Source: Candidatus Firestonebacteria bacterium RIFOXYD2_FULL_39_29
GTDB taxonomy: Bacteria > Oederibacteriota > D2-FULL-39-29
DNA: 33,336 nucleotides
Reading direction: 5' to 3'
Assembly (NCBI GenBank): GCA_001778375.1
Contig: MFGV01000030.1
Location: forward strand, 1 to 33,336
In this document: positions 12,848 through 18,922 of the stretch, in pieces
Layout: each line of letters begins with the position of its first letter
Numbering within the stretch: the stretch's first letter is position 1
Notes under the pieces: generated by a model
Seen by the model: the letters and a program-made list of their open reading frames with translations, nothing else
Databases searched by the model: none
What the model was told of the DNA's origin: nothing
Translations under genes and position numbers: made by a program

Positions 12848-12868
12848 TTGTTCATGGCTTGTTCATGG
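12848..12868. repeat. Tandem 10-bp direct repeat with 11-bp period upstream of the rpsU promoter
   Basis: The word TTGTTCATGG occurs at 12848-12857 and again at 12859-12868, one helical turn apart. It ends 4 bases before the -35 box of the rpsU operon promoter. Position and spacing fit a binding site for a regulator that docks next to RNA polymerase, but no regulator is identified. It also lies upstream of the divergent PBP1A promoter. Confidence 0.6.
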
Positions 12869-12872
12869 GCTA

Positions 12873-12901
12873 TTGACAAAATCGGTAATGTTTGATAGAA
12901 T
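12873..12901 (+). promoter_or_regulatory. Strong sigma70-type promoter of the rpsU-rpoD operon
   Basis: A perfect TTGACA at 12873-12878 is followed after 17 bases by TAGAAT at 12896-12901. The predicted start is at about 12908, leaving a leader of roughly 140 nt before rpsU. This is the best promoter match in the window and fits an operon for translation, replication and transcription genes. Confidence 0.8.
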
Positions 12902-12905
12902 GCTC

Positions 12906-12926
12906 ATGTCCACTTGACGTGGACAT
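12906..12926 (+). promoter_or_regulatory. Perfect 8-bp stem-loop at the predicted transcription start of the rpsU operon
   Basis: ATGTCCAC (12906-12913) pairs perfectly with GTGGACAT (12919-12926) across a 5-nt loop, and T residues follow to 12930. It coincides with the predicted +1. As DNA it is a palindromic operator candidate; as RNA it would be a 5'-terminal hairpin that could protect or regulate the message. A second possible pairing in the leader is ATTTGTT (12932-12938) with AACAAAT (12974-12980). Which role applies cannot be told from sequence. Confidence 0.6.
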
Positions 12927-13046
12927 TTTTCATTTGTTTTCTCTCTGTCAAAAGTGTATTTAAGCATATTTGGAACAAATACAGGCTTACTAATTGTCTA
13001 ATAAAAAAAAAGAACAAAAATCTAATTAAAGAAAGGGTGATCTCAA

Positions 13047-13241
13047 GTGGTCGAAGTAATTGTGAAATCCGATGAGTCTTTTGAATCGGCACTGAAAAGG
13101 TTTAAAAGGAAATGCCAGATGGAAGGCATCCTTACCGAAATCAGAAAAAGAGAATTTTATGAAAAGCCGAGCGAAAGAAGGAAAAAGAAAGAAGAAGCTG
13201 CTGCTAGAAAGTTAAGAAAAAGACTCGAGAAGATGGATTAA
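13047..13241 (+). CDS. rpsU: 30S ribosomal protein S21
   Basis: A 64-residue basic protein of the small ribosomal subunit that helps initiation near the 16S 3' end. The GTG at 13047 follows AAAGGGTGA (13032-13040). Family hallmarks are the opening [20 protein letters not shown] and the block [21 protein letters not shown], ending in a Lys/Arg-rich helix. It is the first gene of the operon rpsU-yqeY-mpg-nif3-dnaG-rpoD, as in the classical macromolecular-synthesis operon. yqeY follows 9 bases later. Confidence 0.95.
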
Positions 13242-13250
13242 GGAGTTGGA

Positions 13251-13694
13251 ATGGGCTTGAAAGAAAAGCTTGATGAAGATCTTAAGCTGGCAATGAAGGC
13301 CAAAGATGAGCTTAAGCTTTCCACCGTGAGGTTACTAAAGAATGCAATTAGCAACGCTGAGATTGCAAAGAAAAAAACTTTAACGGATGATGATATTATT
13401 ACTGTCATTCAGTCTTCAATCAAACAGCGTAAGGATTCTATAGAACAGTACACACAGGGTGGAAGAAGTGAGCTTGCGGTACAGGAAGAAACTGAAATGA
13501 AAATACTGCAGGCTTATCTTCCGGAGCAGCTGAGTGAAGAGGAAGTCAGAAAATTTGTATTGGATGTTATTAAAGAGACCGGTGCAGCTTCTGTCAAGGA
13601 AATGGGGAAGGTTATGGGAAAGTTAATGCCCCTGGTTAAAGGCAAAGCAGATAGCTCTCTGGTAAGTTTGATAGTGAAAGAGCACCTTAAATAG
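13251..13694 (+). CDS. yqeY: GatB/YqeY-domain protein
   Basis: A 147-residue all-helical protein related to the tail domain of the GatB subunit of Asp/Glu-tRNA amidotransferase. Characteristic blocks are LKEKLDEDLKLAMKAKD at the start, STVRLLKNAISNAEI near 24-38, and the helical bundle LQAYLPEQLSEEEV with GKVMGKLMPLVKGKADSS near the end. YqeY homologues commonly lie between rpsU and dnaG, as here; their function is not established beyond a presumed tRNA-binding role. AAGGAG lies just before the ATG at 13251. mpg begins 3 bases after the stop. Confidence 0.93.
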   Translation: MGLKEKLDEDLKLAMKAKDELKLSTVRLLKNAISNAEIAKKKTLTDDDIITVIQSSIKQRKDSIEQYTQGGRSELAVQEETEMKILQAYLPEQLSEEEVRKFVLDVIKETGAASVKEMGKVMGKLMPLVKGKADSSLVSLIVKEHLK

Positions 13695-13697
13695 TCA

Positions 13698-14240
13698 ATG
13701 AAGGTATTGGGTGAAAAGTTTTTTAACAGACCTACTCGCACTGTGGCTAAAGAGCTTCTTGGTAAAGTGTTTGTCAGGAATTTTTACGGCAAAACATTTA
13801 TGGGCCGCGTTGTTGAGACAGAAGCCTATCTTGGTACGAAAGATCCGGCCAGCCATGCATATAAAGGACAAACAAAAAGAAATAGTGTTATGTTCGGTAA
13901 ACCCGGGGTTGCTTACGTTTATCTTTGTTATGGCTTCCATTTTATGATGAATGTTGTAACTGAAAAAGATGGTGTTGCGGGAGCGGTGTTACTTCGAGGG
14001 GTTGAACCTCTTAGCGGGCTTAAGGGTAAGGTAACAAACGGACCGGGAAAACTTGCCGGTGCTTTTAAGCTGGGGAAGAAAGAGAACTGTCTGCCTCTTC
14101 TTCTGAAAAGCGGGATATATTTTGCAGATGATGGTTACAAGGATTTTAAAATAATCAGAACCGTAAGGATTGGGATAAAACAGGGGCAGAATTTGCCCCT
14201 TCGGTATTATATAGAAGGGAATAAACACGTATCTAAGTGA
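13698..14240 (+). CDS. mpg: 3-methyladenine DNA glycosylase, AAG/MPG family
   Basis: A 180-residue base-excision repair enzyme that removes alkylated purines from DNA. The family is clear from GRVVETEAYLGTKDPASH (36-53), which holds the catalytic Glu region, then RNSVMFGKPGVAYVYLCYG (72-90), MMNVVTE, and the C-terminal NGPGKLAGAF block. The length is slightly short for bacterial members (about 190-200). The start ATG follows the yqeY stop by 3 bases, with AAATAG as the junction and no strong Shine-Dalgarno, so translation may be coupled. Its presence inside an rpsU-dnaG-rpoD operon links alkylation repair with replication genes. The last codon region runs directly into a heptad-word array that starts at the stop codon. 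Confidence 0.93.
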   Translation: MKVLGEKFFNRPTRTVAKELLGKVFVRNFYGKTFMGRVVETEAYLGTKDPASHAYKGQTKRNSVMFGKPGVAYVYLCYGFHFMMNVVTEKDGVAGAVLLRGVEPLSGLKGKVTNGPGKLAGAFKLGKKENCLPLLLKSGIYFADDGYKDFKIIRTVRIGIKQGQNLPLRYYIEGNKHVSK

Positions 14241-14353: not shown

Positions 14354-15316
14354 ATGAAGTTGGGTGATTTCTATAAAGCAGTGGTAGAAAAAGGCATCGA
14401 GTCGGACCCGAGAGGTAAAGATATAGTAAGAGAAGAGCTTAAAAAAACAGCTGAGGTGTTTAAGGCACTAAAACCTGAAGAAAAAAAGAGTTTTGACGAA
14501 GATAAGCTTTTTAATCCCTATGCTGATACCAGAGTGCTGAATGGTTCGTTAAATTCGGAAATAAAAACAGTTATGGTCGGAGTAGATATTGACTCCGGAG
14601 ATCTTGCGATAGCGGACAGACTTTCGGAAAAGGGTAAAAAGATAGATTTGGTGATGGCTCATCATCCTTCAGGGAAAGCATATGCTAACTTTTATGAAGT
14701 CATGGGTATGCAGAGTGAGCTTTTTCATCAGGCGGGTATTCCTATAAATGTGGCTGAAAATACTATGGGTCCGAGAATGAAAGATGTAGAACGCAGGGTA
14801 ATGCCGTCAAATCACACAAAAACGGTTGATGCCGCAAAGCTTCTTGGTCTAAATATGATGTGCGCGCATACTGTAGCGGATAATCATGTGGCAAGTTATC
14901 TTACCGCGATTTTTGCAAAGAAAAAACCTGAGACACTTAAAGACATTCTTGGAATTCTGAATGAAATTGAGGAGTATAAGATCTCTGCTTCAAATAATGC
15001 CGGGCCAAAAATATTTACAGGCAGTGAAAGCTCTAAATGCGGAAAAATATACGTAGATATGACCGGCGGGACTGAAGGTCCTAAAGAAATCTATGAAGCG
15101 GCCTCAAAAGCGGGTTTTGGTACGTTTGTGGGTATGCATTATTCTGAAGATCACAGGAAAGAGATAAAAAAGAATTTTATGAATATTGTCGTTGCGGGGC
15201 ATATCAGCAGTGATAACCTCGGGTTAAACTTGCTCTTGGATGCGGTAATGAAGCAACGGGGTAAATTGGAAATACTTGAATGCTCGGGTTATCGCAGAGT
15301 AAGCAGATCTAAGTAA
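14354..15316 (+). CDS. NIF3-like (DUF34) putative metal-dependent protein
   Basis: A 320-residue protein of the NIF3/DUF34 superfamily, dinuclear-metal proteins of uncertain biochemical role (GTP cyclohydrolase-like and other activities have been proposed). The ATG at 14354 is chosen because GGGAGGG (14341-14347) is 6 nt upstream; an in-frame TTG at 14339 would include the ribosome-binding site. Possible metal ligands are the AHHPSGKAYA segment near residue 96 and a C-terminal GHISSDNLG block near 285, plus HTVADNHVAS near 172. It has an N-terminal extension of about 60 charged residues (LKKTAEVFKALKPEEKK). It is followed 9 bases later by dnaG, an association seen for NIF3-like genes in several phyla. 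Confidence 0.8.
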   Translation: MKLGDFYKAVVEKGIESDPRGKDIVREELKKTAEVFKALKPEEKKSFDEDKLFNPYADTRVLNGSLNSEIKTVMVGVDIDSGDLAIADRLSEKGKKIDLVMAHHPSGKAYANFYEVMGMQSELFHQAGIPINVAENTMGPRMKDVERRVMPSNHTKTVDAAKLLGLNMMCAHTVADNHVASYLTAIFAKKKPETLKDILGILNEIEEYKISASNNAGPKIFTGSESSKCGKIYVDMTGGTEGPKEIYEAASKAGFGTFVGMHYSEDHRKEIKKNFMNIVVAGHISSDNLGLNLLLDAVMKQRGKLEILECSGYRRVSRSK

Positions 15317-15325
15317 CAGGAAATC

Positions 15326-17116
15326 ATGGGCTTAATACCGCAGGATAAGATTTTACATATTAAGGAAGCCTTTGACATTGTGGACGTAATAAGCGAGCAT
15401 GTTCACTTGAAAAAGTCCGGGCAGAATTTTAAAGGTTTATGTCCTTTTCACAACGAAAAGACGTCTTCTTTTGTGGTCAGTCCGGTTAAACAGATTTATC
15501 ACTGTTTCGGCTGCGGAGAAGGCGGTAATGTACTGCATTTTATATCAAAGATAGAGAATATCAGTTTCATTGAGGCTGTGAAATATTTGGCCGAAAAGAA
15601 GGGGATCACCCTGGATACCGGTGACACGGCAAAAAAAGATGAATACGAAGAGCTTTTCAAGGTTAACGAACTTGCGGTAAAGTACTTTAGACAGAAACTG
15701 AAAGAAAGTAAAACAGCTCAGGATTATTTAAGTAAAAGGAATTTGAACCCGGAGACTCTGGAAAAGTTTGCAATAGGTTTTGTGCCGGAGGAATGGGATG
15801 GTCTTTTAAATTTTGGAAGAAAAAATAATATAAGTCCTGAACTTCTTGAAAAAGCCGGGCTTATCATTAAAAGGGATAAAAAGGACGGACATTATGACCG
15901 TTTTCGTAACAGAATAATATTCCCGATAGTCAGCAGTTTTGGCAGGTACGTAGCTTTTGGTGCAAGGGTCTTGGATAATTCGCTCCCTAAGTATATTAAT
16001 TCTCCTGAGACCCAGGTATACAGTAAAGGTAAGAATCTTTACGGTTGGAATATTGCCAAAACCAATATTCCCGAAGAATTAGGAGTTGTAATTGTCGAAG
16101 GTTATCTGGACTGTATAACCTGTCATCAATACGGGATAACTAATACGGTCGCAACGCTCGGGACTTCTTTAACGAAAGCTCAAGCGCTGCTTCTAAAAAG
16201 GTACACCGATAAAGTTGTAATTGCTTATGATCTTGATGCTGCGGGTATAAATGCTTCTTTACGCGGTATTGCGGTACTTGTGGAAGCGGGCTTGGATGTA
16301 AAAGTTGTGGTATTTTCCGGAAGCAAGGATCCTGATGAGTATTTGAACAAGGAAGGTAAAGTAGCTTTTGTCGAAAAACTGAGATCAGCAAAGAGTATTG
16401 TGGATTTCTGGCTTGACATTGTAAAACCGGAAAACTTGGCCGATCTGAAAGGTAAGTTGAAACTTTTCAGTCAGATGCTCCCGGTAGTGGCTGCGGTTTC
16501 GGATGATGTAAAAAGGGAAGAATATAGAAAAATAATCTCGGCAAGGATGAACCTGCCGGAAAGGCTTATTAGAGAACAGATCGAAAGTTATTATGAAAAA
16601 CTCTATAATGTAACGGTAGATAAAAAGAAAGAAACGGCTAAGAAACCTGGCGTGACCGGAAGAGATGCGAAGGACCTGAGAACTGAAAGAATGGAGAAGC
16701 AGTTGTTGGTTCTCTCCCTCTCTGATATAGAGACTGCAAAGAGAGTCAAGTCATTTGTTTTTCCTTCGGATTTTGATGATGAAGCGGTAAAAAAGATATT
16801 CGAACTTATATTCGGGTATTGTGAAAAAGAGAACGGGTTTGATTATTCGGCGATGGCCGATGAGCTTGAAGGCGAGGCCAGGAAACTGTTTACGGAAGTC
16901 AACCTTGATAAAGTGGAATATTCCGAAGAAAGCAGGATAAAAGCGGAGAAGGATCTCATAAAAGCGGTAAAGAACAGCCGGCTTGAAAAGAGGCTTAAAG
17001 AAATTGATGTTGAGATCAAAAAAGGTAATGTAGATAAGGAACTTTATAACGAATATATGAGCATACAACGGCATTTTAAGGGTTCTAAAACAGAAAAGCA
17101 GCAGGGGGTAAAGTGA
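15326..17116 (+). CDS. dnaG: DNA primase
   Basis: A 596-residue primase that makes RNA primers at the replication fork. In order: the CHC2-type zinc domain with CPFH (39-42) and CFGC (60-63); the RNA-polymerase core with AFGARVL and [10 protein letters not shown]; the TOPRIM domain with IVEGYLD (Glu258), the acidic AYDLDAAG and DPDEYL; then a helicase-interacting C-terminal region rich in charged helices. The length is normal for the family. AGGA precedes the ATG at 15326. The TGA stop overlaps the GTG start of rpoD by four bases, so the two are probably translationally coupled. Confidence 0.96.
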
Positions 17117-18840
17117 AAGAATCAGCAAAGGTCGTAAAAAAGAATAAGCAGAAGATGAAGAAAAGTGAAGTTGAAAAACTCCTAATTGAAAAGGGTAAGG
17201 AAAAAGGTTATTTAACCTATCAGGAAGTAAACGAGATTATACCGGAAGATGTTATCTCTCCGGAGGAAATAGATAATCTTTTAACAAAACTTGATGAAAT
17301 GGATATTAATATTGTTGATGCTCCAAAAGAAGAAAAAGTTGCTGATTTGCATCTTACTGCGGCAACAGATATAGCTATTGATGATCCTATCCGTTTATAT
17401 CTTCGATCTATGGGACAGATTTCCATACTCACAAGGGAGCAAGAGCTGAGTTATGCCGAGGAAATTGAAAAGGCAGAGGAAGAAATTGATAAGATTCTTT
17501 TTGAATCCCCTCTCATTCTTAGTAAATTTAAAGGAATGTCAGATGAGGTGATGGATAATCAAAAAGGCATACATGAGATAATGAACATTGATACCGAAGG
17601 TGAGTTGAGTAACAGAATTATTAAGAAATACAAAAAAATACTTAAGGATAATTTAAGAAAAATCGGACAGGAAGAGGGTAAGGTTAAACATATTAACAAG
17701 CGCTTGAGCAAGAAGTCTGTTTCTGATCGTCAAAGAGCTGCGTTGGAAGAGAAAAAGATAAAAAGTATTGAGAAGATTGTTGAAGTTCTGATTGAACTCG
17801 ATATTAACACTGAAGAAAAAAAGAATATGATAAGCATGGTAAAAACCATGACGGATCAAATTCATTCTTTTGAGCGGGAAACCGATAAAATATTAAAAGA
17901 AACAGGACTCACCAAGGAAGAACTCAGAAAGGTATTTAATTCTAAAAAACTTAAAATTCGCTGTAAATACTCTGTTTCGGAATTATGTGAGTTGTATAAA
18001 AAAATAACAATAAATGAAAAAAACACAAGACAGATCGCGGATAATGCGGGAAGTACTTCTTCAAAGATAAAAGCAGATACCCGGCTTATAGCGGAAAATG
18101 AAACCAGGGCTTATAATGCCAAAATGAAACTTGTGAAAGCCAATCTGAGGCTGGTGGTTTCCATAGCAAAAAAATATACCAACAGGGGTTTGCATTTCCT
18201 TGACCTTATTCAGGAAGGAAATATAGGGCTGATGCGTGCTGTTGATAAATTTGAATATAAACGCGGGTATAAGTTCTCTACCTATGCCACCTGGTGGATA
18301 AGACAGGCAATTACGAGAGCCATTGCCGATCAGGGGCGCACTATCAGGGTACCGGTTCATATGATAGAAACCCTTAATAAACTTATAAAAAATTATAGAG
18401 AACTGGTTCAACATCTGGGTCGTGATCCTCTTCCTGAAGAAGTCGCGAAGAAAATGGGGCTTCCTGTTGAAAAAATCAGAGAAGTATATAAAATAGCGCA
18501 GGAACCGATATCGCTTGAGACGCCGATAGGTGAAGATAAAGACGGGCATTTAGGTGATATTATTGAAGATAAGGAAGTTGTTTCCCCTGCTGTTGCGGCA
18601 GCCCATATGATCTTGCAGGAACAACTGGAAAAGGTTCTCATTACTCTAAAAAGCAGAGAGGCGGAAGTTATCCGTTTACGCTTCGGAATTAATAAACCTT
18701 ATCCGTACACTCTTGAAGAAGTCGGTAACATCTTTAATATTACCAGAGAAAGAGTCCGTCAAATTGAAGCAAAAGCGCTCCGCAAACTGCGGCATCCGGT
18801 AAGAGCGAAGTTCCTGAAGGGCTTTCTGGAACAGCAATAA
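17113..18840 (+). CDS. rpoD: Primary sigma factor (sigma70/RpoD)
   Basis: A 575-residue housekeeping sigma factor. The GTG at 17113 overlaps the dnaG stop (GTGA) and has AGGGGG about 6 bases upstream. Region 1.1 occupies the acidic N-terminus (about 1-85). Region 1.2 is at about 90-125 ([20 protein letters not shown]). A long charged non-conserved region spans about 125-335. Region 2 begins near 341 ([55 protein letters not shown]), followed by region 3. Region 4 is near 512-570 with the helix-turn-helix [20 protein letters not shown]. It ends the operon; an intrinsic terminator follows 56 bases after the stop. Confidence 0.97.
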
Positions 18841-18883: not shown

Positions 18884-18895
18884 GTAAAAGCATTG

Positions 18896-18922
18896 AAAGG
18901 GCGGAGAAATCTGCCCTTTTTT
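18896..18922 (+). terminator. Intrinsic terminator of the rpsU-rpoD operon
   Basis: A 10-bp stem (AAAGGGCGGA with its complement, one G-U pair) is capped by a GAAA tetraloop at 18906-18909 and followed by six T residues at 18917-18922. It is a textbook rho-independent terminator, 56 bases past the rpoD stop. Confidence 0.9.

Follow-up and report, generated by a model that had tools for sequence, protein, structure and literature searches.

A candidate leader RNA at the predicted transcription start of the rpsU–dnaG–rpoD gene set in an uncultured bacterial phylum

The predicted mRNA of rpsU in the 33,336-nucleotide window that we analyzed (the whole of contig C30 of a 3.0-Mb assembly) opens directly with a conserved hairpin followed by a U tract. 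Our tentative reading of this element, in which we place a little less than even confidence, is that it is a leader RNA that acts in cis: it would attenuate transcription in the manner of a terminator and also cap the 5′ end of the mRNA. The promoter and leader serve the gene set rpsU-yqeY-mpg-nif3-dnaG-rpoD, all on the forward strand. These genes encode ribosomal protein bS21 (13047–13241; TIGR00030, 86 bits), a GatB/YqeY-like protein with weak GatE matches only (13251–13694), which we take to be YqeY-like, a DNA-3-methyladenine glycosylase (13698–14240), a possible NIF3-like protein with a weak match far below the cut-off (14354–15316), primase (dnaG, 15326–17116), and the primary sigma factor (rpoD, 17113–18840). 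A terminator-like hairpin after rpoD (18895–18920) likely marks the end of the operon. Because the PBP1A-family gene on the other side is divergent from rpsU, there is no upstream gene on the forward strand for the dyad at the start of the leader to terminate.

For comparison, 43 genomes of the phylum besides the window's own (39 + 4) were searched for S21; three of them (G017, G026, and G037) had no match to S21 and were left out of the leader counts. Families carry arbitrary labels: f1 is the window's own family (G000–G004), f2 comprises G005–G008, and f11 comprises G018, G030, G033, and G036. Because f1 and f2 are families of a single order, part of their agreement reflects descent; within f2, the rpsU leaders of G006 and G008 are identical.

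The promoter described in the first-pass annotation is there, with TTGACA at 12873–12878, four bases past the second of two TTGTTCATGG words, and TAGAAT at 12896–12901 after a 17-bp spacer. The -35 element is TTGACA in 5/5 f1 and 3/3 f2 leaders, and the -10 element is extended (TG-A-TAGAAT, 12893–12901, with the TG at 12893–12894). With 11 of 12 matches this is the best promoter in the scanned region, and it is kept in all five f1 genomes; it has the form of a sigma-70 type promoter (TTGACA, a spacer of 16–18 bp, and a TATAAT-like hexamer) and is conserved in orthologues. The arrangement TTGACA-17-TATAAT, allowing at most one mismatch, occurs at 185 places in the genome compared to 49 for the reversed pattern, an enrichment indicating that this promoter type is in use in this genome. 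The predicted transcription start is G12908, 7 nt past the -10 element, an offset shared by all five f1 leaders.

The 8-bp dyad reported over this start, ATGTCCAC-TTGAC-GTGGACAT at 12906–12926, is also present. Shuffling makes both it and the direct repeat formed by the two TTGTTCATGG words only mildly unusual: 63/1000 shuffles of the intergenic region contained an 8-bp dyad with a loop of 3–8, and 32/2000 dinucleotide shuffles of the 265-bp intergenic region contained an exact 10-mer repeat 8–25 bp apart. Conservation therefore has to decide. The six inner base pairs of the dyad are conserved in 5/5 f1 genomes and begin at the predicted start; the outer AT/AT pairs are not conserved and precede the start.

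All five f1 genomes read GTCCAC-TTGAC-GTGG(A/G)C followed by T5–6, beginning 7 nt after the -10 element. Since the first G of the stem keeps this distance throughout f1, the RNA should begin with the stem. The window's dyad is followed by T5, and as a result scores as an intrinsic-terminator-like site. As RNA, the element is a predicted 5′-terminal hairpin, GUCCAC-(UUGAC)-GUGGAC (12908–12924), supported by conservation and pair changes, and then a U tract and U/C-rich stretch, A/T-TTTTT-CATTTGTTTTCTCTCT (12925–12946), that is kept in f1. The f1 stem has 6 bp and a predicted stability of -9.1 kcal/mol. Most of the leader drifts within f1; the block GTCCACTTGACGTGG(A/G)C-(A/T)TTTTT-(C/A)ATTT is nearly invariant. 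In G003 and G004 a U-A pair of the stem becomes U.G, an RNA-type change that makes the second half-site GTGGGC. An RNA hairpin explains the dyad better than an operator does.

A covariance model of the 39-nt block found the rpsU site in 5/5 f1 genomes at 63–68 bits (E at most 7e-11). The next best match in 59 genomes scored 32 bits (E 4.2e-4) and proved to be a terminator in an intergenic region, with an unrelated ORF downstream; the best eight weaker matches are an ordinary terminator, hairpins with a T run, or sites in or against unrelated ORFs. The f2 and f11 rpsU sites were not among the matches of this search, whose filters can lose weak matches at such a size. The looser pattern CTTGACRN2-10T5 occurs at 17 places in the genome compared to 35 for reversed controls, and of 16 places viewed by eye with their flanks (L127 left out), a hairpin leader was seen at rpsU only. 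A minus-strand mini-ORF over the dyad was rejected upon inspection by eye: its frame is not kept and its ATG is lost in G003.

The core of the element, CTTGACG at 12913–12919, is common to the f2 and f11 rpsU leaders in the form CTTGACR. In f2, a hairpin at +1 is followed by a second one, GTTCCC-TCTTGAC-GGGAAC with TTTTCTTTTTT, which bears the motif and lies about 45 nt past the start. When the stem pairs of f1 and f2 were compared by listing, two pairs proved to differ in both bases (C-G to U-A and A-U to C-G) with UUGAC kept in the loop. In f11 the motif comes without a +1 hairpin; the hairpin starts some 6–9 nt in and is a long, stable stem ending CTTGACAG(A/G)C-N2-3 before T6–7, with CUUGAC in its 3′ strand and the U tract after the stem. 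The CTTGAC motif was also considered as a second -35 element, but by eye the f1, f2, and f11 leaders offer no suitable -10 element at 16–18 bp.

The pattern CTTGAC[AG]-N5-6-TTTT is found in 13/13 rpsU leaders of these three families (f1 5/5, f2 4/4, f11 4/4), a count that is descriptive because the pattern was derived from them beforehand. The controls are 0/28 leaders of twelve other families, 1/79 rpsU leaders from other named records, and a background of 4 in 930,956 nt. The single case among the named records is L046 (344–443), from JALSQH010000133.1, an unclassified MAG that is not among the phylum genomes sampled and that has CACTTGACAGCACATTTTT upstream of rpsU. A weight matrix built from f1 finds the element in 6/7 f2 and f11 leaders, G006 being left out as a duplicate, with shuffle p values of 0.003–0.027; the f11 genome G030 did not rise above its shuffles (p 0.95), and 2/28 other leaders fell under 0.05.

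In the mechanism that we propose, transcription from the TTGACA-17-TAnAAT promoter would start at G12908, and the mRNA would open with GUCCAC-UUGAC-GUGGAC and then the U tract. Hairpin and U tract would together act as a weak promoter-proximal intrinsic terminator, either an attenuator or a terminator-like pause, that sets the number of polymerases entering rpsU...dnaG-rpoD. In read-through mRNAs the same hairpin would leave no unpaired 5′ nucleotide and would guard that end against pyrophosphohydrolase. A trans factor may recognize the CUUGACR core, as its conservation suggests. What the sequences show is the promoter, the hairpin, the motif, and their conservation; the start site, termination, 5′-end protection, and any trans factor are inferred. 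The terminator reading draws on the fact that the T run and CTTGAC core are kept where the hairpin is off +1, as in f11 and f2; the 5′-sealing reading draws on the fact that the +1 position is kept in families f7 and f8, which lack the motif. In f1 the two sets of elements are one structure.

As in a terminator or attenuator, a GC-containing hairpin and U tract lie between the promoter and the first gene. The f1 and f2 leaders showed no alternative antiterminator: no RNA lies upstream of the f1 hairpin, so an antiterminator cannot come from there, and none was seen by eye in the f2 leaders. The f1 stem is only 6 bp long, and termination so close to the start, at some 23 nt, would be unusual. 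Against a plain terminator, the conservation runs beyond the U tract (CATTTGTTTTCTCTC), which a terminator does not need.

The hairpin may instead be only a 5′-terminal mRNA stabilizer, resisting 5′-end-dependent decay at +1, with the U-rich stretch as a single-stranded spacer or binding site; we regard this as unlikely, though it deserves serious consideration. Taking the best predicted promoter of each leader (L069 dropped for its short upstream region, G006 as a duplicate), we found predicted pairing of at least 0.8 at +1 to +3 in 20/40 leaders, namely all of f1 (5), f2 (3), f7 (3), f8 (7), f6 (1), and f15 (1), whose sequences are quite different; pairing at +1 itself is at least 0.9 in 20/20 of these. 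The stem begins 0–2 nt from the 5′ end, as in stabilizing stem-loops, given the predicted start. Pairing at +1 by chance is common: 7/30 perfect promoters of this genome and 16/78 rpsU leaders of other named records reach 0.8, although a strict stem in the first 4 nt is found at only 1/30 of the promoters. The +1 hairpins of f7 and f8 lack the CTTGAC motif and those of f8 the T run as well, so a hairpin at +1 does not have to be an attenuator. According to PMC3997798, the Bacillus pyrophosphohydrolase acts only where two or more 5′ nucleotides are unpaired, and titles among its references concern 5′-terminal stem-loops that stabilize E. coli mRNA (papA and others). Those stem-loops likewise lie at the extreme 5′ end, a position that is predicted from sequence here, but our element carries a conserved loop and a U tract in addition. 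What a stabilizer leaves unexplained is the T run and CTTGAC core in all the leaders of three families, and the f11 hairpin some 6–9 nt in. In the remaining families, f11 included, 0/20 leaders reach 0.8 at +1 to +3. In f8, 7/7 leaders (L013–L015, L017–L020) open with a GC-rich hairpin within about 3 nt of the predicted start, and these hairpins differ in sequence.

A more ambitious version of the attenuator reading is that the CUUGACR hairpin and U tract form a new autoregulated ribosomal-protein leader RNA, read by S21 or another trans factor, which would couple S21 supply to primase and the primary sigma factor. We consider this doubtful. If true, this operon would have an RNA regulator in cis, and a review (PMC10931766) calls the control of rpsU in E. 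coli unknown. No title on an rpsU leader or attenuator was found in the literature searched, which mostly excluded subscription papers. The leaders described in PMC2965389 offer a close likeness: in the rpsL leader, a hairpin and T run also stand between the promoter and a ribosomal-protein gene, and relatives conserve ribosomal-protein leader attenuators while the stems vary. They differ in that the f1 element is at +1, and ligand, antiterminator, and rRNA mimicry are not part of the predicted element; the terms "S21" and "rpsU" are absent from that text. At gathering cut-offs, Rfam yielded two tRNAs only in the window and no leader family for the element, and the best matches under relaxed settings were at chance level. 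In an uncultured phylum, three families carry the motif ahead of rpsU, and in this genome dnaG and rpoD follow too; the leader is a short, testable RNA for rpsU control, a modest but testable lead.

The PyrG leader (Rfam RF02371) senses CTP and attenuates through slippage at 5′ G residues. It too is an attenuator right at the transcription start, and it gave a weak Rfam match over the same stretch; in contrast to our element, it serves pyrG. We rejected PyrG-like slippage, as the match is at chance level (17 bits against a cut-off of 65, E 7.6) and GUCC, the predicted 5′ end, lacks a run of G.

It is improbable that the dyad is a DNA operator over +1 for a dimeric repressor. It forms a perfect palindrome over the start, and the half-site GTCCAC is invariant in the five f1 genomes, but the GTGGGC of two genomes keeps RNA pairing and breaks DNA symmetry. 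Moreover, the motif-bearing f2 hairpin lies well past the start with another stem and the same loop, and no f1 genome has a second strong site.

We see a slim chance of a translational switch, in which CCACUUGA of the hairpin would pair with UCAAGUGG, which covers the start codon of rpsU, and would block initiation unless the hairpin forms. The long-range pairing, weakly suggested, would involve TCAAGTGG over the GTG start (13043–13050) and the complementary CCACTTGA of the hairpin. The complementarity spans 8 nt in 4/5 f1 leaders and 6 nt in the fifth, and compared with shuffled start regions the f1 duplexes have p values of 0.03, 0.03, 0.053, 0.08, and 0.137; it is absent in f2 and f11 (p 0.13–0.8), and because both partners vary little or not at all within f1, covariation is uninformative. 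Pairing of the loop with the ribosome-binding site in f2 and f11, also tried, was no better than shuffles.

The rpsU gene has an extended Shine-Dalgarno sequence, GGGTGATC (13035–13042), and the anti-SD GGATCACCTCCTT was found in the genome. At -13.3 kcal/mol this is the strongest of 23 window genes compared, but only by a small margin, another window gene reaching -13.1 kcal/mol, so we dropped the idea of a sole outlier. In f1 and f11 relatives, too, the sequence is present as GGGTGA. In Flavobacterium, bS21 autoregulates through an extended Shine-Dalgarno sequence (PMC9976891); the long GGGTGATC of rpsU is alike, but here another gene is nearly as strong, neighboring genes use SDs, and a hairpin is no part of the Flavobacterium mechanism.

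The eye-catching DNA repeat is a distraction. It consists of two TTGTTCATGG words (12848–12857 and 12859–12868) in the arrangement TTGTTCATGG-C-TTGTTCATGG, with the period of 11 that the first-pass annotation reported, and that annotation took it for an activator or repressor site on one face of the helix. This is very unlikely: an exact 10-mer repeat does stand immediately upstream of the -35 element, but paired sites with at most 3 mismatches occur at this one place only in the 3.0-Mb genome, the repeat is present in 0/6 relatives (G001–G005 and G007), and single words, allowing up to one mismatch, are not enriched over the reversed control (34 vs 44). G001, of the same genus, reads TTTGTTCCTGTGC before TATTGACA at this place, a single diverged copy, and G002, G003, and G004 show no repeat. 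It is neither conserved at orthologues nor found at other promoters, and its plain reading from these comparisons is a recent, local 11-bp tandem duplication rather than a conserved operator. Of the control region as first described, the promoter and inner dyad stand, being kept in all f1 genomes, and the repeat as operator falls; the growth-rate controller proposed along with it gains no support.

Parts of the element match the genome's own 16S rRNA (L207) in both senses, and rRNA mimicry or antisense pairing was set aside; the matches are possibly coincidence, and we know of no link between the matching parts and S21. The leader hairpin ACTTGACGT (12908–12924) is complementary to ACGTCAAGT, which lies about 340 nt from the end of the 16S stretch compared, and CTTGAC is present in the sense orientation about 547 nt from that end. 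Elsewhere in the genome, two perfect TTGACA-17-TATAAT promoters lie 80 bp apart (L187 and L188; G000:C19 15974–16082), upstream of a 16S rRNA 3′ end at C19:17866, and are probably tandem rRNA promoters.
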